Of a stretch of 64,000 nt of DNA, positions 5,739 through 35,562 are shown piece by piece. Origin of the DNA: Rikenellaceae bacterium (GTDB lineage Bacteria > Bacteroidota > Bacteroidia > Bacteroidales > Rikenellaceae); the NCBI GenBank assembly GCA_015060015.1, contig SUZG01000004.1, positions 57,503-121,502 on the forward strand, read 5' to 3'. The translations under genes and the position numbers were made by a program. Under the pieces are notes generated by a model. That model saw only the letters and a program-made list of their open reading frames with translations, was not told the DNA's origin and made no database searches. Every line of letters begins with the position of its first letter. Position 1 is the first letter of the stretch.

Positions 5739-5767
5739 TTGTAATTGATTTTTTTTTCTTACCTTTG
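5739..5767 (+). promoter_or_regulatory. Promoter of the pyrC-carAB-pyrKD operon
   Basis: TTG (5739-5741), an 18-nt spacer and TACCTTTG (5760-5767) match the Bacteroidetes promoter consensus. Transcription would start near 5774, giving a leader of about 190 nt that holds a small ORF and an intrinsic terminator. Confidence 0.7.
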
Positions 5768-5784
5768 CCCAAACCGAACGATAT

Positions 5785-5922
5785 ATGACAAAACAGGTAC
5801 ATAACACCCCGCAAAGCGAATATTTCAGCGTGTTGCAGTCGGCCGAGTGTCGAAAGAGTGATTATCCCTCTTGTTTTGATGTTGTTTCTGTTTATAATTC
5901 TGTTACTGTTTGTTTTAATTGA
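5785..5922 (+). CDS. Candidate 45-codon leader peptide of the pyrC operon
   Basis: An ORF too short for the supplied track: ATG at 5785, 45 codons, TGA at 5920-5922. The peptide begins MTKQVHNTPQSEYFSVLQ and ends SVYNSVTVCFN. It starts about 11 nt after the predicted transcription start. Its stop codon lies 6 nt before the first base of the leader terminator stem, so a ribosome reaching the end would sterically cover the 5' arm. The last 50 nt before the stop are very T-rich (32 of 50). This is the arrangement known from the E. coli pyrBI leader (44-codon peptide, U-rich pause region, attenuator). No homology between the peptides is claimed; function is inferred from layout. Confidence 0.55.
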   Translation: MTKQVHNTPQSEYFSVLQSAECRKSDYPSCFDVVSVYNSVTVCFN

Positions 5923-5928
5923 GATAAT

Positions 5929-5953
5929 GGCGGCTATTTTAGTCGCCTTTTTT
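5929..5953 (+). terminator. Attenuator terminator in the pyrC leader
   Basis: An 8-bp stem (GGCGGCTA / TAGTCGCC, one G-U pair) with a TTT loop is followed at once by six T residues. It lies downstream of the pyrC promoter and only 10 nt before the pyrC ATG, so it cannot serve the previous gene, whose end is 240 nt away with this promoter in between. It is best read as a conditional terminator for the pyr operon. Confidence 0.75.
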
Positions 5954-5963
5954 GTGTAGATAT

Positions 5964-7235
5964 ATGACGTGTGAAAGATTGATACTCAAAGGTGGAACGG
6001 TAGTCAGAGGTGGCTCGTCGGCTCGTCTGGATGTAGCCATCAAAGGCTCTGATATAGAGTGCATAGCTGCCGATATTGAGCCTCGTAAGGGTGATAAGGT
6101 GATAGACTGCTCTGGACGAATTGTTGTCGCCGGACTTGTTGATTTGCACGTTCATCTGCGAGAGCCGGGTTTCTCGGCAAAGGAGACTATCGCTACGGGA
6201 ACTATGGCTGCGGCACACGGAGGCTTTACGACGGTGTGTGCTATGCCAAACCTTGCACCGGCTCCCGACTCATTGGAGAATTTACAGACGCAGCTCGATA
6301 TAATCAATCGCGATGCGAAGATTAAGGTGCTGCCCTACGCTACAATCACACGCGAAAGATATGGTCGTGAGTTGGTCGATTTCAAGGCTTTGACACCTAT
6401 GGTCGCAGGCTTTTCGGATGATGGCAGTGGCGTGCAGAGTGAAGATGTTATGCGTCAGGCTATGGCCGAGGCTGCAAAGAACGATGCTATTATTGCTGCA
6501 CACTGCGAGGTCGATGCTCTGCTGCGTAAGGGTTATATTCACGATGGCGAATATGCGGCACAGCACGGACACCGAGGTATCTGCTCGGAGAGTGAATGGG
6601 CACAGATTGAACGCGATATAGAGCTCGCAGGCGAGGCCGGTTGTCGTTATCACGTCTGCCATATCTCTACAAAGGAGAGTGTGGCTCTGATTCGCGAGGC
6701 GAAGCGTCGTGGCGTGAAGATTACCTGCGAGACAGGCCCCCACTACCTTACGATGTGTGATATGGATTTGCAGGAGGATGGCCGCTTTAAGATGAATCCC
6801 CCGATTCGTTCAGCCGCTGACAGAGATGCTCTTATTGAGGGTTTGCAGGATGGAACGATAGATGTCGTGGCGACAGACCATGCACCTCACACGGCGGAGG
6901 AGAAGTCGCGAGGCTTGGAGCTGAGTGCTATGGGTGTTGTGGGTTTGGAGACCTCGTTTGCCGTTATCTATACGCATCTGGTGCGTCGTGGTGTTATCTC
7001 GCTGGAAAAGGCTATCGATGTAATGGCCGAAGCCCCTCGCCGCATCTTTGGCTTGGGTGGCGGCCTTATGGAGGGCGAGAAGGCCGACATTGCGGTCTTT
7101 GATCTTACGGCCGAGTGGGATGTTGAGCCCGAAAAATTCCTGTCAAAGGGCCACGCTACGCCCTTCGAGGGTTGGCATTTGTGGGGCGAGTGCTGCCTCA
7201 CGATGGTTGATGGCAAGGTCGTGTATGAGAAGTAG
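5964..7235 (+). CDS. pyrC: Dihydroorotase
   Basis: Zinc amidohydrolase that cyclises carbamoyl-aspartate to dihydroorotate, the third step of UMP synthesis. The track starts at a TTG four codons upstream; the ATG at 5964 (MTCERLILKGG) is chosen. The protein has 423 residues, the class I (long) dihydroorotase size. Metal and active-site motifs are intact: DLHVHLREPG (about 56-65), SDDGSGVQ, HCEV, CHIST, TCETGPHYLT and the metal-binding Asp in VATDHAPH. It is the first gene of pyrC-carA-carB-pyrK-pyrD and is preceded directly by the candidate attenuator. carA follows after 35 nt. Confidence 0.95.
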   Translation: MTCERLILKGGTVVRGGSSARLDVAIKGSDIECIAADIEPRKGDKVIDCSGRIVVAGLVDLHVHLREPGFSAKETIATGTMAAAHGGFTTVCAMPNLAPAPDSLENLQTQLDIINRDAKIKVLPYATITRERYGRELVDFKALTPMVAGFSDDGSGVQSEDVMRQAMAEAAKNDAIIAAHCEVDALLRKGYIHDGEYAAQHGHRGICSESEWAQIERDIELAGEAGCRYHVCHISTKESVALIREAKRRGVKITCETGPHYLTMCDMDLQEDGRFKMNPPIRSAADRDALIEGLQDGTIDVVATDHAPHTAEEKSRGLELSAMGVVGLETSFAVIYTHLVRRGVISLEKAIDVMAEAPRRIFGLGGGLMEGEKADIAVFDLTAEWDVEPEKFLSKGHATPFEGWHLWGECCLTMVDGKVVYEK

Positions 7236-7270: not shown

Positions 7271-8359
7271 ATGAAACCTTTTACAAAAAAATTAGTCCTT
7301 GAAAACGGTCGCGAGTTCTACGGCTATGGCTATGGTGCCGATGTGGAACGCGTTGGAGAGATTGTTTTCAATACTTCGGTTGTGGGCTATCAGGAGATTA
7401 TCTCTGACCCTTCGTGTATGGGGCAGATTGTCGTGATGGCGTACCCTCTGATTGGTAATTATGGAATTACCGATGAAGACTTTGAGTCGAAGCAACCACT
7501 TGTGGGTGGTATGGTTGTGCGTGAGTGTAACGAGAATCCGAGTAACTTCCGTTACACCAAGACCTTCTCCGAGACTCTTGATGAGCAGGGAATCCCCTGC
7601 ATTGCAGGTGTCGATACGCGTATGATTGTGCGTATCATCCGCGAGGAGGGCTCGCAGCGTGCAGCTATCGTTGCTGCCGATATGCCTACCGAGGCGGCTT
7701 TGGCGTTGATTAAGGCTACCCCGCTGCCCGAGAAGCTGGTTGAGCAGGTGAGCAGCCGCAAGCGTTGGTTCTCGCGTACGCCCAATCACAAGTACGACAT
7801 CGTAGCTGTCGATTGCGGTATCAAGCATAGCATCATCAGCCACTTTAACTCTCGCGGCTGTAATGTTACGGTCGTGCCGTTTGACGCTACGTTGGAGGAT
7901 ATCATGGCTTTCAATCCCGATGGAATCTTCCTCTCGAATGGCCCGGGTAGTCCCGAGGAGTTGCCGCAGATTGTGGAGATGATAAAGTCCGTCAAGGGAC
8001 GTGTTCCGATGTTCGGAATATCGTTGGGTATGCAGCTCATAGCTCTTGCTTATGGTGCCGAGGTGAGGAAGATGAAGTGTGGTCATCACGGCGGAGCCGC
8101 TGTGAAGGATACGGCTACGGGCAGAATTGATATGACGGCACAGAATCATAGCTACGAGGTTGTTGCAGAGTCTGTGAAGGGTACCGACTTGAACATTACC
8201 CACGTGAATATCCCTGACGGCTCGGTGGAGGGTGTTGAGTGTGTCGCCGATAAGGTTTATGGCGTGCAGTTCCACCCCGAGAGTGCCCCGGGACCGCAGG
8301 ATAGCGTATATCTTTTCGATAAATTCATTAAACTGATGGAGGAGAAACAAAATGCCTAA
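7271..8359 (+). CDS. carA: Carbamoyl-phosphate synthase small subunit, catalytic Cys replaced by Ser
   Basis: A 362-residue CarA. The N-terminal CPSase small-chain domain (about 1-140) is normal, and the C-terminal class I glutamine amidotransferase domain runs from about 165. In the nucleophile elbow, where the family has GICLGHQ, this protein has GISLGMQ: Ser251 (TCG, 8021-8023) replaces the catalytic Cys and Met254 replaces the His. The His-Glu pair of the triad survives in GVQFHPES near the C-terminus, as do GPGSP and GHHGG. In E. coli CarA a Cys-to-Ser change abolishes glutamine use, and vertebrate CPS1, which uses free ammonia, also has Ser there. The subunit therefore probably cannot hydrolyse glutamine, although it may still stabilise CarB. 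Its stop overlaps carB by 8 nt, indicating translational coupling. Confidence 0.93.
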   Translation: MKPFTKKLVLENGREFYGYGYGADVERVGEIVFNTSVVGYQEIISDPSCMGQIVVMAYPLIGNYGITDEDFESKQPLVGGMVVRECNENPSNFRYTKTFSETLDEQGIPCIAGVDTRMIVRIIREEGSQRAAIVAADMPTEAALALIKATPLPEKLVEQVSSRKRWFSRTPNHKYDIVAVDCGIKHSIISHFNSRGCNVTVVPFDATLEDIMAFNPDGIFLSNGPGSPEELPQIVEMIKSVKGRVPMFGISLGMQLIALAYGAEVRKMKCGHHGGAAVKDTATGRIDMTAQNHSYEVVAESVKGTDLNITHVNIPDGSVEGVECVADKVYGVQFHPESAPGPQDSVYLFDKFIKLMEEKQNA

Positions 8360-11300
8360 GAGAACAGATATAAAGAAGGTTATGGTAATCGGCTCTGGTC
8401 CGATTGTCATTGGTCAGGCCGCAGAGTTCGACTATGCAGGTACGCAGGCGTGTCTGGCATTGAAGGAGGAGGGTTATGAGGTAATACTCGTGAACTCTAA
8501 CCCCGCAACAATTATGACCGACACCAATATCGCCGATAAGGTATATATGGAGCCTTTGACGCTGGAATATGTGGCGAAGATTGTTCGCTATGAACGTCCC
8601 GACGCCATTGTCCCCGGTTTGGGTGGTCAGACAGGTCTGAACTTGGCTGTGCAGCTTGCCAAGAAGGGTATTTTGGACGAGTGTCATGTGGAGATTCTGG
8701 GTACTTCGTTCGAGAGTATCGAGAAGGCCGAGGATAGAGAACTCTTCAAGGAGTTGTGTATCAGCATAGGTGAGCCGGTGCTTCCCTCTTTGGTTGTGAA
8801 TACTATGGAGGATGGCGTGAAGGCTGCCGAGAAGATTGGCTACCCCGTAGTGTTGCGTCCCGCCTTTACTCTTGGCGGTACGGGTGGCGGCTTTGCCGAT
8901 AATGAGGAGGAGTTACGCGAGATTATGCGTAATGCCCTTATCCTTTCGCCCGTGCATCAGGTTTTGGTTGAGAAGAGCATCAAGGGCTATAAGGAGATTG
9001 AGTTTGAGGTTATGCGTGACAAGAACGATACCTCTATCGCAATTTGTAGTATGGAGAATATCGACCCTGTGGGTATCCATACAGGCGACTCGATGGTTGT
9101 GGCACCTGCACAGACCTTGACCGATAAGGAGTACCAGTTGTTGCGTGGCAGTGCCTTGAAGATAATTCGTGCCTTGAAGATTGAGGGTGGCTGTAATGTG
9201 CAGTTTGCGTTGGACCCACTCTCGTTCAAGTATTATATCATCGAGGTTAATCCTCGCGTGTCGCGTTCTTCGGCTTTGGCTTCGAAGGCGAGTGGTTTCC
9301 CGATAGCCCGCGTTACGGCGAAGATTGCCGTTGGTCTGACTCTTGATGAGATTACCATCTCAAACCGTCCTGCCTGCTTTGAGCCTGCGTTGGACTATGT
9401 GGTGTTGAAGGTGGCACGCTTCCCATTTGATAAGTTCAGTGACGCATCGAATGAGCTGGGTACGCAGATGAAGGCTACGGGTGAGGTTATGAGTATCGGC
9501 CGCACTATTGAGGAGGGCTTGTTGAAGGCGGTTCGTTCACTCGAAACAGGCGTTTGTCATATCTATCACAAGAAGTTCGATGACTGGAAGGTAGAGGCTC
9601 TGTTGGAGTATATCCGCAAGGGAACAGACGATAGAATCTATGCCATAGCACAGCTTATTCGTTTGGGTGTTGATTTGCTTATCATCTACAACCATACGAA
9701 GATTGATATGCTGTTCCTCGAAAAGTTGAAGAACATCGTCGAGATGGAGAAGGTTGTCGCTGCTGCCAAGGGCGATACCGAGGTGCTCAGAGAGGCCAAG
9801 AAGATGGGCTTCAGCGATAAGTATATCGGCCAACTTTGGGGTATGACCGAAGCAGAGGTATTCTTGAAGCGTAAGGCGGAGAAAATATTCCCCGTATATA
9901 AGATTATCGACTCGTGTGCAGGTGAAATCAATACCTATGTACCCTACTTCTATTCAACCTATGAGGCAGAGAACGAGTCTGTAAGGAGTGATAGAAAGAA
10001 GATTCTGGTGCTTGGCTCAGGCCCTATCCGAATCGGTCAGGGTGTGGAGTTCGACTACTCTACCGTTCACGCTATCTGGACTATTAAGGAGGCCGGCTAC
10101 GAGGCTATCATCATCAATAACAACCCCGAGACGGTATCTACCGACTACACTATCAGTGATAAGCTCTACTTCGAGCCACTGACGGTCGAGGATGTGATGA
10201 ATGTTGTTGAGCTGGAGCAGCCCGACGGTATCGTGGTGTCGCTGGGTGGTCAGACGGCAATCAACCTTGCAGAGCCTTTGGCTGACTTGGGTGTGAAGAT
10301 TATCGGTACGGGCATTGAGGCTATCAACAACGCCGAGGATCGTAAGTGCTTCGAACGTATTATGAACGAGGTGGGTATCCCCCAGCCCAAGGCAAAGGCC
10401 GTAACCGACATCGAGGCAGGTGTAGAGGCCGCAGCAGCTATCGGCTACCCTGTGTTGGTACGTCCGAGCTTCGTGCTTGGTGGTCGTGCAATGCAGATTG
10501 TCGGCAACGAGGAGACTCTGCGTCACTACCTGCGTTCAGCCGTTGAGATTAACGAGAAATCGCCCGTTTTGGTCGATAAGTATATTCAGGGTAAGGAGTT
10601 GGAGGTCGATGCTATCTGTGACGGCAAGGATGTCTTTATCCCCGGCATTATGGAGCATGTCGAGCGTACGGGAATCCACTCTGGCGACTCAATCAGCGTC
10701 TATCCCACTTTCAGCGTGAGCCAGCAGGTTAAGGATACGATTATCGAATATACCAAGCAGCTGGGTCTGGCTATCGGCATTGTCGGCCTGTTTAATATCC
10801 AGTTTATTGTTGATGAGCAGGATAAGGTCTATGTGATTGAGGTAAATCCTCGTTCATCGCGTACCGTGCCGTTCCTGTCAAAATCTACGGGCGTGCCTAT
10901 GGCAAAAATTGCAACGATGGTTATCTTGGGTCACTCGTTGAAGTCGCAGGGCATTACCGAGGTGTATGGCAAGGAGAGCCCTCGCTGGTTTGTTAAGTCG
11001 CCTGCATTCTCGTTTGCCAAGATTCGCGGTGTCGATTCATACCTCTCACCGGAGATGAAATCTACGGGTGAGGCTATCGGTTATGATAAGAGCCTTAATC
11101 GTGCGTTGTATAAGTCGTTGCAGTCGTCGGGTGTGGCGGTGGCCAACTATGGTACTATCTTCGTTACTATCGCCGATGCCGACAAACAGCGTGCATTGCC
11201 ACTTATTAAGCGATTCTATGACTTGGGCTTCAATATCGAGGCGACGAAGGGTACTTGCGAGTTCTTGCGTAGTCATGGTATTCGCACTCGCCATTTGCGT

Positions 11301-11534
11301 AAGCTAAGTGAGGGCAGCACCGAGATTTACGACTCATTGCGTAAGGGTCACGTTACCTATGTAATCAACACTATCGATGTCAATCAGCACAGCACACGTC
11401 GCGACGGATACGATATCCGAAGGGCTGCGGCCGAGAATAATGTTACATTGTTTACGGCATTGGAGACTGTGAGTGTGTTGCTCGATGTTTTGGAGGAGAT
11501 AACTCTCGGAGTATCAACTATTGACGGTAAATAG
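8352..11534 (+). CDS. carB: Carbamoyl-phosphate synthase large subunit
   Basis: A 1060-residue CarB close to the usual length (about 1070). It has two homologous synthetase halves, each with a preATP-grasp and an ATP-grasp domain (first half about 1-400, second about 555-930), and a C-terminal MGS-like regulatory domain (about 935-1060). Motifs include VMVIGSGPIVIGQAAEFDYA at the start, its repeat ILVLGSGPIRIGQGVEFDYS in the second half, and VNPRVSRSSALASKA and VNPRSSRTVPFLSK at the metal sites. It phosphorylates bicarbonate and carbamate and accepts ammonia, normally channelled from CarA. Both halves look intact, so the enzyme should work with free ammonia even if CarA lacks glutaminase activity. 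In enterobacteria the C-terminal domain binds UMP and ornithine. Confidence 0.96.
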   Translation: MPKRTDIKKVMVIGSGPIVIGQAAEFDYAGTQACLALKEEGYEVILVNSNPATIMTDTNIADKVYMEPLTLEYVAKIVRYERPDAIVPGLGGQTGLNLAVQLAKKGILDECHVEILGTSFESIEKAEDRELFKELCISIGEPVLPSLVVNTMEDGVKAAEKIGYPVVLRPAFTLGGTGGGFADNEEELREIMRNALILSPVHQVLVEKSIKGYKEIEFEVMRDKNDTSIAICSMENIDPVGIHTGDSMVVAPAQTLTDKEYQLLRGSALKIIRALKIEGGCNVQFALDPLSFKYYIIEVNPRVSRSSALASKASGFPIARVTAKIAVGLTLDEITISNRPACFEPALDYVVLKVARFPFDKFSDASNELGTQMKATGEVMSIGRTIEEGLLKAVRSLETGVCHIYHKKFDDWKVEALLEYIRKGTDDRIYAIAQLIRLGVDLLIIYNHTKIDMLFLEKLKNIVEMEKVVAAAKGDTEVLREAKKMGFSDKYIGQLWGMTEAEVFLKRKAEKIFPVYKIIDSCAGEINTYVPYFYSTYEAENESVRSDRKKILVLGSGPIRIGQGVEFDYSTVHAIWTIKEAGYEAIIINNNPETVSTDYTISDKLYFEPLTVEDVMNVVELEQPDGIVVSLGGQTAINLAEPLADLGVKIIGTGIEAINNAEDRKCFERIMNEVGIPQPKAKAVTDIEAGVEAAAAIGYPVLVRPSFVLGGRAMQIVGNEETLRHYLRSAVEINEKSPVLVDKYIQGKELEVDAICDGKDVFIPGIMEHVERTGIHSGDSISVYPTFSVSQQVKDTIIEYTKQLGLAIGIVGLFNIQFIVDEQDKVYVIEVNPRSSRTVPFLSKSTGVPMAKIATMVILGHSLKSQGITEVYGKESPRWFVKSPAFSFAKIRGVDSYLSPEMKSTGEAIGYDKSLNRALYKSLQSSGVAVANYGTIFVTIADADKQRALPLIKRFYDLGFNIEATKGTCEFLRSHGIRTRHLRKLSEGSTEIYDSLRKGHVTYVINTIDVNQHSTRRDGYDIRRAAAENNVTLFTALETVSVLLDVLEEITLGVSTIDGK

Positions 11535-11545
11535 TCAGAGTAAGG

Positions 11546-12286
11546 ATGTATAAAAAAAGTATATATAAAATCGTCGCAAACGAGCCTCTGACACGCGATG
11601 TGTGGCGAATGGTCCTGGAGGGTGATACGCAGTGGATTTCACACTCGGGTCAGTTTGTCAATATCGAGTTGGAGGGGCTCTATCTGCGTCGCCCTATCTC
11701 TATATGCGATTGGGATGACAGAAGCATAACACTTATCTATAAGGTCGTAGGCCGAGGTACCGAGCAGATGCGAAAGATGCAGGCGGGTGAGTGCCTGGAT
11801 GTGCTTACGGGGCTGGGCAATGGCTTTAATGAAGATGTGGAGTGCGAACGACCTCTGCTGGTAGGCGGAGGCGTGGGCGTTCCCCCACTCTACCATTTGG
11901 CAAAGGAACTCATTGCTCGTGGCCGAAAGGTCAGCGTTGTGTTAGGCTTTAATGCAGCATCAGAGGTCTTTTATGCCGAGGAGTTTCGTGCGTTGGGAGC
12001 CGAGGTCTTTGTTTCAACCGTCGATGGCTCGGTGGGTGTGAAAGGCTTTGTGACAGATGCAATTCGCGAAGCTGCGATAGATTTCGACTACTTCTATTCG
12101 TGTGGCCCGTTGCCTATGTTGAAGGCTCTGTGCGGAGCTACCGATGTCGATGGCGAGCTCTCTTTTGAGGAGAGAATGGGCTGCGGTTTTGGTGCTTGTA
12201 TGGGTTGCTCGTGCAAGACCCTGACGGGTAACAAGCGTATCTGCAAGGAGGGCCCTGTAATGAAACGTGGGGAGATAATTTGGTAG
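11546..12286 (+). CDS. pyrK: Dihydroorotate dehydrogenase B, electron-transfer subunit
   Basis: A 246-residue FAD/[2Fe-2S] flavoprotein that passes electrons from dihydroorotate (through PyrD FMN) to NAD+. Visible parts are a flavin-binding barrel with LRRPISICDW (about 48-57), an NAD-binding fold with LLVGGGVGVPP (about 105), and a C-terminal cluster region GCGFGACMGCSC with a last Cys in KRICKEG supplying the four iron-sulfur ligands. Length is normal. It starts 11 nt after carB and is followed after 3 nt by pyrD, the standard pyrK-pyrD pairing of class 1B dihydroorotate dehydrogenases. A NAD-linked enzyme suits an anaerobe without an oxygen-linked quinone pool. Confidence 0.93.
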   Translation: MYKKSIYKIVANEPLTRDVWRMVLEGDTQWISHSGQFVNIELEGLYLRRPISICDWDDRSITLIYKVVGRGTEQMRKMQAGECLDVLTGLGNGFNEDVECERPLLVGGGVGVPPLYHLAKELIARGRKVSVVLGFNAASEVFYAEEFRALGAEVFVSTVDGSVGVKGFVTDAIREAAIDFDYFYSCGPLPMLKALCGATDVDGELSFEERMGCGFGACMGCSCKTLTGNKRICKEGPVMKRGEIIW

Positions 12287-12289
12287 GCT

Positions 12290-13210
12290 ATGGAGAAGAA
12301 ACTGGATTTATCGGTTGAGTTGTGCGGAGTAAGGCTGGATAATCCCGTAGTGCCTGCAAGTGGCACATTCGGATTTGGACGCGAGCATAACGAGTTTTAC
12401 GATATCAATGTGCTTGGCTCTATCTCGGTGAAGGGAACAACGCGTGAGGCACGCTTTGGTAACCCTACGCCACGCATTGCCGAGTGCCGTGCGGGTATGA
12501 TTAACTCTGTGGGATTGCAAAATCCGGGCATCGACGCAGTGATTGAGAGGGAGTTACCCGAGTTGAGAAAGATATTTCATAAGCCTATAATTGCCAATAT
12601 CAGCGGTTTCTCTATCGACGAGTATGCCGAGTGCTGTGCGAAGATGGATAAGCAGGAGCAGGTTGAGATTTTGGAGGTCAATGTGTCGTGTCCCAATGTG
12701 CATAATGGCGGTATGAGTTTCGGCACACAGCCCGAAATGGCAGCCGAGGTTACGCGTGCTGTGAAGGCTGTAACCAAGAAGCCTGTGTTTATTAAGTTGA
12801 GCCCCAATGTTACCGACATTGTCGCTATCGCCAAGGCGTGCGAGGAGGCGGGAGCTGACGGTATCTGCTTGATAAATACGCTGCTGGGTATGCGAATTGA
12901 CACCCTGCGTCGCAAGCCTGTTATAGCCAATAAGATGGGCGGATTTTCGGGCCCTGCGGTATTCCCCGTAGCTGTGAGGATGGTATATCAGGTGTCGAAG
13001 GCTTGTCGTATTCCCGTTATGGGCTGTGGTGGCGTGGAGAGTGCTTCGGATGTTATTGAGATGATGATGGCCGGAGCTACTGCCGTTCAGGTGGGTGCTG
13101 CCAATCTGAAAAACCCCTATGCCTGCAAGGAGATTATCGAGGCATTGCCCGCAGAGATGCAGCGTCTTGGTATTGAATCGTTGCGTGATATAATCGGTGT
13201 AATTGATTAA
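12290..13210 (+). CDS. pyrD: Dihydroorotate dehydrogenase B, catalytic subunit
   Basis: A 306-residue FMN TIM-barrel enzyme oxidising dihydroorotate to orotate. The active-site loop NVSCPNVHNGG carries the Cys that is the catalytic base in class 1 enzymes (class 2 enzymes have Ser). FMN and orotate contacts include VPASGTFGFG near the N-terminus, ANISGFS, KLSPNVTD and the phosphate-binding GCGGVESASD near the C-terminus. It pairs with PyrK just upstream. It is the last gene of the first pyr operon and is followed by a strong terminator. Confidence 0.95.
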   Translation: MEKKLDLSVELCGVRLDNPVVPASGTFGFGREHNEFYDINVLGSISVKGTTREARFGNPTPRIAECRAGMINSVGLQNPGIDAVIERELPELRKIFHKPIIANISGFSIDEYAECCAKMDKQEQVEILEVNVSCPNVHNGGMSFGTQPEMAAEVTRAVKAVTKKPVFIKLSPNVTDIVAIAKACEEAGADGICLINTLLGMRIDTLRRKPVIANKMGGFSGPAVFPVAVRMVYQVSKACRIPVMGCGGVESASDVIEMMMAGATAVQVGAANLKNPYACKEIIEALPAEMQRLGIESLRDIIGVID

Positions 13211-17591: not shown

Positions 17592-18296
17592 ATGAGTCAG
17601 CGAGATGTAATCATTGCGTGCGATTTCAGCAGCATCGACACTACCCTATCCTTCCTTGATAAGTTCACCGACTGCAAGCCGTTTGTGAAAATCGGTATGG
17701 AGTTATATTATGCGGCAGGCCCCGCCATTGTGTGGGAGTTGAAGTCAAGAGGCCACAAGGTCTTCCTCGACTTGAAGCTGCACGACATACCCAACACGGT
17801 AAAGAAGGCTATGAAGGTGTTGTCGGCTCTCAACGTCGATATGTGTAACCTCCACGCCGCAGGTACTATCGAGATGATGAAGGCCGCCGTAGAGGGTCTT
17901 ACGCGTCCCGATGGCTCACGTCCTGTGTTGTTGGCCGTTACGCAACTCACCTCGACAAGCGAGGAGCGTATGCAGCGTGATTTGCTTATCAACGCTTCGA
18001 TTAATGATACTATCGTTCACTATGCCAAGAATGCCAAGGAGGCGGGCTTGGATGGCGTTGTATGCTCTCCGTTGGAGGCCGGAATGGTCAAGGAGGCGTG
18101 CGGCAAGGAGTTCGTTACGGTGACTCCCGGTGTCCGCTTTGCCGATGGCGTTGTGGGTGACCAGGTACGCGTCACCACACCTGCCCGTGCTCGTGAGATA
18201 GGTACCGACTACATCGTGGTAGGTCGCCCCATCACCGAGGCTGATGACCCCGTAGCGGCGTATAAGCGTTGCGTGGCCGAGTTTGTGGGTGAGTAA
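17592..18296 (+). CDS. pyrF: Orotidine-5'-phosphate decarboxylase
   Basis: The last step of UMP synthesis, decarboxylating OMP. The 234-residue TIM-barrel protein is of the short (E. coli-like, type 1) class. The catalytic Lys-Asp array is in [13 protein letters not shown] (about 58-70). N-terminal ACDFSS and [11 protein letters not shown], and the phosphate-binding VTPGVRF and [13 protein letters not shown] near the C-terminus, are all present. First gene of pyrF-pyrE-pyrB; pyrE begins 63 nt downstream behind a duplicated 23-nt sequence. Confidence 0.93.
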
Positions 18297-18314
18297 GGAT
18301 AAGATTAGGAACAG

Positions 18315-18360
18315 TAATTAAAAACCAAATAAGTCTATAATTAAAAACCAAATAAGTCTA
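18315..18360 (+). repeat. Exact 23-bp tandem duplication just upstream of pyrE
   Basis: Two perfect head-to-tail copies of a 23-nt unit (starting TAATTAAAAACCAAATAAGT) occupy 18315-18337 and 18338-18360. The last base of the second copy is the A of the pyrE ATG. The first copy ends in ATA where the second runs into ATG. The perfect identity points to a recent duplication of the ribosome-binding region. Confidence 0.9.
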
Positions 18361-18992
18361 TGAAGAAGAGTATTGCCAAAGACCTCCTTTCTATTGGAGC
18401 AGTGTTTTTGCGTCCCGAGCAGCCCTTTACATGGGCAAGTGGCATCAAGAGTCCTATCTATTGTGACAATCGCCTGACCCTCACAGCACCACGCGTGCGT
18501 GATAATGTCGAGAAGGGTCTGTCGGAGCTGGTGAAGGCTCACTTCCCCGAGTGCGAGGTGTTGATGGGTACCTCTACGGCGGGTATCGCCCACGCAGCTA
18601 TCGTGGCTACGATTTTGGACAAGCCTATGGGCTATGTGCGTAGCGGTGCGAAGGACCACGGACGTACAAATCAGATTGAGGGTAAGTTGGAGAAGGGCCA
18701 GAAGGTTGTCGTTGTCGAGGATTTGATTTCGACAGGCGGCAGCTGCATCGAGGTTGTCAATGTGCTGCGTGAGGCAGGTGCCGAGGTGCTGGGCGTGGTG
18801 AGCATCTTCACCTACGGTATGAAGAAGGGGCTGGACCGTATGGCCGAGGCCGAGGTTATCAACCACTCACTCTGCGACCTCGACGCATTGGTGGAGGTTG
18901 CTGCCGAGGAGGGATATATCAAGGCGGAGGATTGTGCCCGCATCATCGCCTTCCGCAACAACCCTTCGGACGAGAGCTGGATAAACAAATAG
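18360..18992 (+). CDS. pyrE: Orotate phosphoribosyltransferase
   Basis: Transfers orotate onto PRPP to make OMP, the substrate of PyrF. The 210-residue protein has the type I PRTase PRPP-binding signature [18 protein letters not shown] (about 118-135), N-terminal [16 protein letters not shown] for orotate contacts, and [11 protein letters not shown] in the flexible-loop region. Length and order are normal. It lies between pyrF and pyrB, and its translation-initiation region carries the exact 23-nt duplication. Confidence 0.95.
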
Positions 18993-19016
18993 TTATAAAC
19001 AGAAAAATATACGACT

Positions 19017-20102
19017 ATGCGTCACTTGATTGATACTACCGATATCTCGGTAGCCGAAGTGGAGGAGATAATCACTACGGCACTCGATATTATTGCTAAT
19101 CGAGAGAAGTATGCCGAGGCGTGCAAGGGCAAGAAGCTCGCTACGCTGTTCTATGAGCCCAGTACGCGTACCCGTTTGAGTTTTACCTCGGCTATGATGG
19201 AGCTGGGAGGCAACGTGTTGGGCTTCTCGGATGCTGCCTCGTCGTCGGTGAGCAAGGGCGAGACTGTGGCCGACACGGTGCGTGTCTTGGGATGCTTCGC
19301 CGATGTTATCGCTATGCGACACTCGAAGGAGGGAGCTCCGCTGGTGGCTTCGCACTATTCGCGTGTGCCTGTCATCAATGCCGGTGACGGTAGCCACGCC
19401 CACCCCACACAGACGCTGACCGACCTCTTGACCATACGCCGCGAAAAGGGTCGTCTGAATAACTTTACGATTGGCTTCTGCGGCGACTTGAAGTTTGGCC
19501 GTACGGTACATTCGCTTATCAAGGCTCTGTCGCGTTACGAGGGTATCAACGTAGTGCTTATCGCCCCCGAGGAGTTGCGTCTGCCGTCGTATATACGCCA
19601 CGAGGTGTGCGACAAGAACAATATCCCCACTCGCGAGGTTACCACTATGGAGGAGGTGCTGCCCGAGCTGGATATTCTCTATATGACACGCGTGCAGAAG
19701 GAACGCTTCCTCGACGAGGAGGAGTTTGAACGCTTGAAGGATAGCTTCATCCTCAATGCAGAACGCTTGCAGGCTGCCAAGCCCGATATGATTGTCCTGC
19801 ATCCGCTGCCACGCGTGAATGAGATTACACGCGACGTGGATAACGATAAGCGTGCGGCATATTTCCGTCAGGTGGAGAATGGTAAGTTTGTGCGTATGGC
19901 ACTGATTTACACGCTGTTGAAGTGGGCGGAGAAGCAGCCTGTCGAGGGCGAGACCCCGCGTCTGCGTGGCGAGGAGGTGCATAACGACTGGCAGTGCAGT
20001 GGCCGTCAGTGTATCTCCAATTCGGAGGATGTCGATAAGCTATTCCATAAGACCGAGAGTGGCGAGTATCGCTGTGCATACTGCGAGTCGAAGGTGAAAT
20101 AG
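19017..20102 (+). CDS. pyrB: Aspartate carbamoyltransferase with C-terminal PyrI-like zinc tail
   Basis: The catalytic chain condenses carbamoyl phosphate with aspartate, the committed step of pyrimidine synthesis. Family motifs are [12 protein letters not shown] (about 45-56), [11 protein letters not shown], the RHSKEG substrate loop, [10 protein letters not shown] and HPLPRVNEI. The protein has 361 residues, about 50 more than E. coli PyrB (about 311). The extra tail contains C327-X4-C332-X20-C353-X2-C356 with CISNSED and CAYCESK, resembling the zinc domain of the regulatory subunit PyrI (C-X4-C-X23-C-X2-C, with CISHAE and CKYCEKE). The nucleotide-binding allosteric domain of PyrI is absent from the fusion, and no pyrI gene follows in the window. 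The tail may help assemble catalytic trimers without CTP/ATP control (inference). Confidence 0.93.
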
Positions 20103-34014: not shown

Positions 34015-34045
34015 TTGCTCGTTATTGAAATAAGTTGTATATTTG
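34015..34045 (+). promoter_or_regulatory. Promoter of metY-metX-hom
   Basis: TTG (34015-34017), 20-nt spacer and TATATTTG (34038-34045) match the consensus. It predicts an unusually long leader of about 225 nt. Confidence 0.7.
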
Positions 34046-34051
34046 CCGAGA

Positions 34052-34278
34052 GAAAGGTGTTACTGATGGTTGCAATTCGAGAAATATCTTATCTAAGCTC
34101 TTATACCCGTTCAATGATGGGTATTATGCGAATGTGCCGTTAGGCACGTCTTTATTTATGGGTGGTTACGTACCACCTTGTGCTGTAAAGTACAAAATTC
34201 CATTACCTATTATTATTTCAAGTTAAACATAGTTGCCTAACGCATCAGCGTCGGGTGAAGATTTATATATAAATAGTT
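34052..34278 (+). ncRNA. Structured 5' leader of the metY operon (candidate regulatory RNA)
   Basis: The leader contains three consecutive hairpins: ATACCC/GGGTAT (34103-34124), GTGCC-GTTA-GGCAC (34134-34147) and GGTGGT-TACGT-ACCACC (34161-34177). The segment CGTTAGGCA (34138-34146), which forms the loop and 3' arm of the second hairpin, is exactly complementary to TGCCTAACG (34234-34242) nearer the start codon. The two could form either a pseudoknot or an alternative helix. I do not see the conserved core of a SAM-I riboswitch. Position before methionine genes suggests control by methionine, SAM or a related metabolite (inference). Confidence 0.5.
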
Positions 34279-35562
34279 ATGTCAGACAATAAATTGCGTT
34301 TCGAAACCCTCCAGATACACGGAGGCTATCATGTCGATGATACAGGCTCGCGAGGCGTGGCAATCTACCCTACTGCGGCCTACCACTTCAAGAGTTGCGA
34401 CTATGCGGCTCGCCTGTTTGAGCTCTCCGAGGGCGGAAATATCTACACACGCCTGCACAACCCCACAACAGCTGCCTATGAGGAACGTGTGGCGGCACTG
34501 TATGGCGGTGTCGGGGCTTTGGCTCTGGCTTCGGGTATGTCGGCTATCCTTATCACCATTACGGCGTTGGCCGAGGCAGGAGATAATATCGTTGCATCGC
34601 CCTTCCTCTACGGTGGAACCTATAATCAGTTTCGTATCTCGCTGCGTAAATTAGGCATCGAGTGCCGTATTGCCAAGAGTGAGAATTGGGAAGATTTTGA
34701 GCCTCTGATTGATGACCGCACCAAGTTGATTTATGTCGAGAGTATGGGTAACCCCACCTGCGATGTCCCCGATTTGGAGGCTTTGGGCGAGTTGGCACGA
34801 CGTAAGGATGTGCCCTTTGTTGTGGATAATACTTTCGGTGCTGCGGGCTTTTTGTGTAACCCGTTTGAGTGGGGAGCAAATATAGTCGTTGATTCGGCTA
34901 CCAAGTGGATTAACGGACACGGAACGGCTATGGGCGGCATAATCGTTGATGGAGGTAACTACAATTGGGCGAATGGAAAATTTCCGCAGATTGACGGCCC
35001 GTCGGAGGGATATCACGGCCTTAATCTCTACGAAACATTCGGTGCTTCGGCCTTTATCGTAAAGTGCCGCGTGGATGGCCTTCGTGACTTTGGCTGCTGC
35101 CCATCATCGTTTGACTCCTATCTGATGATGCTTGGATTGGAGACCCTGTCGTTACGAGTGAAGCATCAGGTGGAGTCGGCCTGGCGTCTGGCTGAATATT
35201 GCCGCCGCCACCAGATGGTGCAACGCGTCAGCTTTGTCGGCTTTGAGGAGCATAACGGCTATAAAAATGCCCAGAAGTATTATCGTTATGGCTCGTCAAG
35301 CGTCTTTACCATCGAACTGAAAGGCTCGCTGGACAGCACCGTGCGATTTGTCGAGGCGTTGAAGCTGTTTGGCAATATGACGATGATTGGCGATTCTATA
35401 TCTGTCGTGACGCACCCCGCCTCAACTACACACAAACAGTTGAGTGATGCCGACTTGAAGGCGGCCGGAGTGACCCCTACGCTGCTGCGTATATCGCTGG
35501 GCTTGGAGAATGTGGAAGATTTGATTGAGGACTTTGAGCAGGCTTTTGCCGCAGCGAAATAG
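34279..35562 (+). CDS. metY: O-acetylhomoserine aminocarboxypropyltransferase (sulfhydrylase)
   Basis: A 427-residue PLP enzyme of the Cys/Met metabolism family that makes homocysteine from O-acetylhomoserine and sulfide. Motifs: YPTAAYHFKSCDYAARLF near the N-terminus, YTRLHNPTTAAYEERVAAL (about 56-74), the PLP phosphate loop SGMSAILITI, and the PLP-binding Lys in DSATKWINGHGTAMGG (about 210). The length of about 430 and the insert around residue 235 favour MetY over MetB/MetC. It is directly followed by metX, which supplies its substrate. Confidence 0.92.
   Translation: MSDNKLRFETLQIHGGYHVDDTGSRGVAIYPTAAYHFKSCDYAARLFELSEGGNIYTRLHNPTTAAYEERVAALYGGVGALALASGMSAILITITALAEAGDNIVASPFLYGGTYNQFRISLRKLGIECRIAKSENWEDFEPLIDDRTKLIYVESMGNPTCDVPDLEALGELARRKDVPFVVDNTFGAAGFLCNPFEWGANIVVDSATKWINGHGTAMGGIIVDGGNYNWANGKFPQIDGPSEGYHGLNLYETFGASAFIVKCRVDGLRDFGCCPSSFDSYLMMLGLETLSLRVKHQVESAWRLAEYCRRHQMVQRVSFVGFEEHNGYKNAQKYYRYGSSSVFTIELKGSLDSTVRFVEALKLFGNMTMIGDSISVVTHPASTTHKQLSDADLKAAGVTPTLLRISLGLENVEDLIEDFEQAFAAAK

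Follow-up and report, generated by a model that had tools for sequence, protein, structure and literature searches.

The 64 kb window analysed here (the whole stretch of DNA, from a genome that we judged to be Alistipes) contains a pyrimidine biosynthesis operon whose promoter is separated from the first gene, pyrC, by a short open reading frame (ORF) and a predicted intrinsic terminator. This arrangement raises the question of whether translation of the ORF decides if the operon is transcribed and, if so, which cue is being read. A sequence-only reading of the window had proposed the logic of the Escherichia coli pyrBI attenuator, and that proposal gains support from the persistence in relatives of the ORF, of the geometry between its stop codon and the hairpin, and of its U-rich end. 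We put at roughly 0.75 the probability that the leader is a translation-coupled attenuator which, like that of E. coli pyrBI, reads pyrimidine nucleotide supply. Within this reading there is good support for translational control of the terminator, and we infer that UTP is the signal.

Anatomy of the pyrC leader

The leader and the operon that it precedes have the following features.

5739..5767, + strand: promoter of Bacteroidetes type, TTG...TACCTTTG, read from the sequence and found at the same position in relatives
5768..5784, + strand: stretch from the promoter to the leader ATG, 17 nt after TTTG
5785..5922, + strand: leader ORF of 45 codons, MTKQVHNTPQSEYFSVLQSAECRKSDYPSCFDVVSVYNSVTVCFN and a stop, read from the sequence and from relatives
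5871..5920, + strand: U-rich tract inside the ORF, 32 T in 50, containing ACTGTTT; proposed UTP-sensitive pausing zone
5920..5922, + strand: leader stop codon TGA, 6 nt 5' of the hairpin
5929..5953, + strand: predicted intrinsic terminator, 8-bp stem GGCGGCTA/TAGTCGCC, loop TTT, then six T
5964..7235, + strand: pyrC, dihydroorotase, first gene of the operon (NCBIfam)
7271..8359, + strand: carA (NCBIfam)
8352..11534, + strand: carB (NCBIfam)
11546..12286, + strand: pyrK (NCBIfam)
12290..13210, + strand: pyrD, class 1B type (NCBIfam)

The promoter, the 45-codon ORF and its TGA stop lie exactly where the sequence-only reading had placed them. Its count of 32 T in the 50 nt before the leader stop was also exact, the richest 50 nt being 5871-5920, and the spacing of 6 nt from stop to hairpin, the six T and the pyrC ATG 10 nt later are all present. 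It had named the operon pyrC-carAB-pyrKD, and all five gene identities were borne out by NCBIfam. The promoter fits the TAnnTTTG consensus of flavobacterial sigma-A promoters (PMC9723704), and in relatives the spacing between TTTG and the leader ATG has a median of 22 nt. A Pfam search of the leader peptide returned no family. The terminator hairpin proper occupies 5929-5947, with TTTTTT directly 3', and since the pyrC ATG (5964-5966) follows the T run after only 10 nt, pyrC transcripts must pass the terminator. Stretches with at least 30 T in 50 nt occur at only three short places on the + strand of the window. On both strands of the window, the combination of a promoter, an ORF of at least 20 codons and a terminator was found in two places, the pyrC leader and a leader of metY.

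The metY leader ORF (MVAIREISYLSSYTRSMMGIMRMCR and a stop; 34038-34160, + strand) has a Met-rich end and is directly followed by the hairpin GTGCCGTTAGGCAC, metY itself lying at 34279-35562. Met-rich metY leader peptides were seen in at least seven other Alistipes genomes, most of them ending in MRMCR and a stop with the DNA ATGCGAATGTGCCGNTAGGCAC; leaders with this ending are L251, L252, L264, L268, L269, L271 (a variant) and L272, and L258 and L263 are other Met-rich metY leaders. An Rfam search of the metY leader gave no match. To judge from its sequence, this leader looks like a methionine-sensing one.

If the pyrC leader works as pyrBI does, RNA polymerase would begin some 10 nt upstream of the leader ATG, and the new RNA would immediately be engaged by a ribosome. 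When UTP is plentiful, polymerase would cross the U-rich tract fast and outrun the ribosome, so that the hairpin at 5929-5947 would fold and transcription would end near 5953, short of pyrC. In a UTP shortage, polymerase would pause in the tract and the ribosome would reach the stop codon, where it would cover the 5' arm of the hairpin; no terminator would then form and pyrC-carAB-pyrKD would be transcribed. It is the location of the stop, at or inside the hairpin, that would allow a terminating ribosome to cover the 5' arm. In E. coli, placing a stop codon 5 bp upstream of a terminator reduces termination from ∼90% to <10%, in a translation-dependent manner (PMC4824070). The steps that we infer for the present leader are coupling, pausing and termination, and the model presupposes that ribosome and polymerase are tightly coupled in Bacteroidota. 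A conserved peptide is not required by the pyrBI mechanism.

Conservation and drift across Alistipes and its relatives

We examined the upstream regions of one pyrC type in Alistipes and its sister genus g20, amounting to 97 distinct regions. Leaders with a promoter and a terminator were subjected to a strict test, which asks for an ATG-started ORF that is 20 codons or longer and stops no more than 15 nt from the hairpin. This test was passed by 86 of 92 distinct leaders, against 11.5 expected from the 12.5% pass rate of dinucleotide shuffles. Hand inspection of the six leaders that failed it, and of four regions that the automatic hairpin finder had overlooked, showed the layout to be present in 96 of the 97 regions (86 strict and 10 inspected, a count made partly by eye). 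Two of these ten exceptions have a GTG start and a stop inside the hairpin, one GTG-started ORF and two ATG-started ORFs cross the hairpin as E. coli pyrL does, and the remaining five are ordinary ATG-started ORFs that end inside it. Only one of the 97 regions, L014, is without the leader structure. In this genome (G002) a repeat-like sequence replaces the pyrC leader.

As a control, the scanner that had picked out two places in the window was positive for 84 of 92 leaders of the pyrC type found in Alistipes and g20 and for 0 of 28 regions upstream of the other Bacteroidales PyrC type. With a looser scan, 15 of 21 other Bacteroidales-labelled records carrying the same PyrC type were positive, including Porphyromonas canoris and records labelled Paludibacteraceae and Prevotellaceae; several of the 15 (L139, L143, L165, L167 and L175) have short ORFs or few T. 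The same looser scan gave 0 of 25 positives in Clostridia and Bacillota with this PyrC type. An order-wide search of 393 Bacteroidales genomes found this PyrC type only in Alistipes and g20, and it is rare in Bacteroidales outside these two genera. Loss of the ORF in relatives that keep the terminator, the outcome which the sequence-only reading had named as speaking against it, was checked for and not seen: the ORF persists in Alistipes, in the sister genus and in scattered other Bacteroidales. The Porphyromonas pyrC leaders L160 and L166 have a very pyrimidine-rich ORF end (CTGTTTCTTTTTCTTTTTCTCTTC) that is visually close to E. coli pyrL, with 31 T of 50 at the ORF end of L166.

What is kept in these leaders is the position of the stop, which falls between -13 and +13 nt of the hairpin in every strict case, together with the length of the ORF (from 23 to 49 codons in the strict set, mostly from 27 to 45) and its U-rich last third. 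The leader peptides differ between subclades to the point of being unalignable, with C-terminal residues related within subclades. It had been suggested that silent changes within the ORF would argue for the attenuator. This is weakly borne out by 21 close pairs, whose pN/pS of 0.56 indicates moderate purifying selection, but not by the nearest relative, L105, which has an identical hairpin and an ORF with three replacement and zero silent changes. The outer six base pairs of the terminator occur in 24 different arm combinations; because the hairpin finder required pairing, these show sequence turnover and are not proof of covariation. Relatives are non-independent samples, though their peptides and hairpins have turned over. 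A 6-mer, ACTGTT, is present in 13 of 47 non-redundant leaders where 1.5 would be expected, typically 19-25 nt before the hairpin. An N-terminal I-S-P motif was also considered as part of the mechanism and was discarded as too patchy (6 of 47 leaders).

U-richness and the nature of the signal

The proportion of T at third codon positions is 0.54 in the last 15 leader codons, compared with 0.28 earlier in the leader and 0.23 in pyrC. T climbs toward the hairpin, to ∼0.53 in the last 20 nt, and in 48 of 50 leaders the T content ranks among the highest 5% of pyrC 45-mers. In the 50 nt preceding the hairpin the median count of T is 21; for 23 ordinary terminators of the same loci it is 14. The bias is not uniform, some Alistipes subclades having only 13-15 T in 50 nt and two near-identical leaders of the sister genus (L088 and L089) having little U beside the hairpin. 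Windows that end 42-54 nt upstream of the hairpin are slightly more structured than expected (mean z -0.3 to -0.6), a signal that could reflect a pause hairpin but is too weak for one to be claimed.

Taken together, the geometry, the U-rich tract and the identity of the operon as a pyrimidine operon make the pyrBI logic the best-supported explanation. Among the points against it, the U-rich sequence could simply keep the end of the ORF unstructured, and the pyrFEB cluster of the same genome (pyrF, pyrE and pyrB, together at 17592-20102 on the + strand, 4 kb downstream of the operon) has no comparable leader ORF with terminator. A rival that we consider rather unlikely keeps the geometry and the control by the ribosome but replaces UTP by a different cue (general translation capacity, for instance, or growth rate, or another NTP), with the U-rich end doing no more than leaving the RNA unstructured. 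Geometry alone accounts for blocking of the terminator (PMC4824070), the U-rich region is weakly folded, and L088 and L089 would fit such a device. However, the enrichment is specific for T (0.53 T vs 0.17 A at -11 to -20), extends to silent third positions and exceeds the level before ordinary terminators, and the genes controlled form a pyrimidine operon.

An amino acid could also be the cue, through attenuation of the trp/his type with an antiterminator; arginine would be an example, since carAB also feeds arginine synthesis. A leader ORF followed by a terminator is the classic setting for such control and arginine pairs do occur in some leaders, but none of the residues combines universal occurrence with clustering: 26% of leaders contain Arg-Arg and 31% contain Leu-Leu. 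Upstream of the hairpin we found nothing with conserved pairing to its 5' arm (mean z 0.07, with 7 of 86 leaders under 5%), hence no indication of an antiterminator. The metY leader in the same window, with its Met-rich peptides, shows what an attenuator of this kind is expected to look like, and we regard amino-acid attenuation of pyrC as very improbable.

We give hardly any credence to the ORF being a small protein gene of the ordinary kind that has its own terminator and plays no part in regulating pyrC: the ORF is intact and its position conserved, but there is no room for a promoter between the terminator and pyrC, it is the geometry and not the peptide that is conserved, and the layout tracks this pyrC type. 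PyrR attenuation was rejected because searches found neither the RNA element (no element in an Rfam search of the leader) nor the protein (no PyrR above the curated cut-off in the genome itself or in 24 relatives, control genomes being positive). Attenuation by an arrest peptide of the TnaC type was rejected since the peptides, unalignable between subclades, have no conserved critical residues.

A leader of a different appearance was seen 5' of pyrB in another Bacteroidales family (L186), where a TACCTTTG promoter precedes a mini ORF of six codons (ATGAAAAGACAGACGTCATAA) and a hairpin that resembles a terminator and carries a T run. This is possibly another kind of pyr leader.

Known attenuators and the origin of the leader

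UTP-sensing by coupling of ribosome and polymerase is known from enterobacterial pyrBI and pyrE. The Alistipes leader resembles that of E. coli pyrBI (pyrL) in its short ORF (45 codons, and 44 in pyrL), in the U-rich stretch before an intrinsic terminator and in the pyrimidine operon immediately 3'. The details differ. The pyrL frame continues past its hairpin and stops 3 nt short of pyrB, whereas most Alistipes ORFs end shortly before the hairpin or within it; the distance from ATG to hairpin is 88 nt in pyrL and 144 nt in the Alistipes leader, whose U-tract is longer and nearer the hairpin. The operon controlled is pyrC-carAB-pyrKD and not pyrBI, the peptides are unrelated and the two organisms belong to different phyla. 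Because peptide, gene order and geometry all differ from those of pyrL, with no recognisable similarity, convergence is likelier; we take the Alistipes leader to work like pyrBI, probably by convergence, and common descent with pyrL is not claimed. In E. coli rph-pyrE, too, an upstream translated frame ends just before the terminator and the coupled ribosome blocks it, but there the frame is a full gene (rph), and in Alistipes it is a dedicated leader ORF.

The PyrR attenuators of Bacillota share with the Alistipes leader a terminator before a pyr operon, and the Alistipes operon is of the pyrC/pyrK-pyrD type, but here a leader ORF stands instead of the Rfam element and PyrR. In the Clostridia relatives, Rfam gave no match over threshold for the PyrR element, and the only basis for the contrast with PyrR is therefore that the leader ORF is missing there. 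Within Bacteroidota, leader-peptide attenuators of the trp/his type have been reported for amino-acid operons of Flavobacterium psychrophilum (PMC9723704); these likewise have a leader ORF and then a terminator, but the Alistipes pyrC leader lacks their regulatory codon cluster and antiterminator. The transcriptome study of B. thetaiotaomicron mentions leader-peptide-like sORFs in general only (PMC7366714). The sequence-only reading named no such attenuator as described for pyrC operons in Bacteroidetes, and we likewise found no description of pyrimidine attenuation in Bacteroidota in the openly searchable literature.

As to how the leader arose, we hold at about even odds a scenario in which an operon type otherwise found in Clostridia and Bacillota came to Bacteroidales and there gained a UTP-sensing leader-ORF attenuator de novo. 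This would be a separate origin of a pyrBI-type device, selected for geometry and U content while its peptide drifted, and it would need tight coupling. The analysis suggests that Alistipes independently evolved E. coli's way of sensing UTP shortage. If this is true, the mechanism arises independently, and polymerase and ribosome would be closely coupled in Bacteroidota, a phylum in which Shine-Dalgarno sequences are not known to be used more than rarely. The leader could then be used in gut bacteria as a simple genetic reporter of coupling, and it offers an explanation for how pyrimidine synthesis may be controlled in Alistipes, where no PyrR scored above the cut-off.
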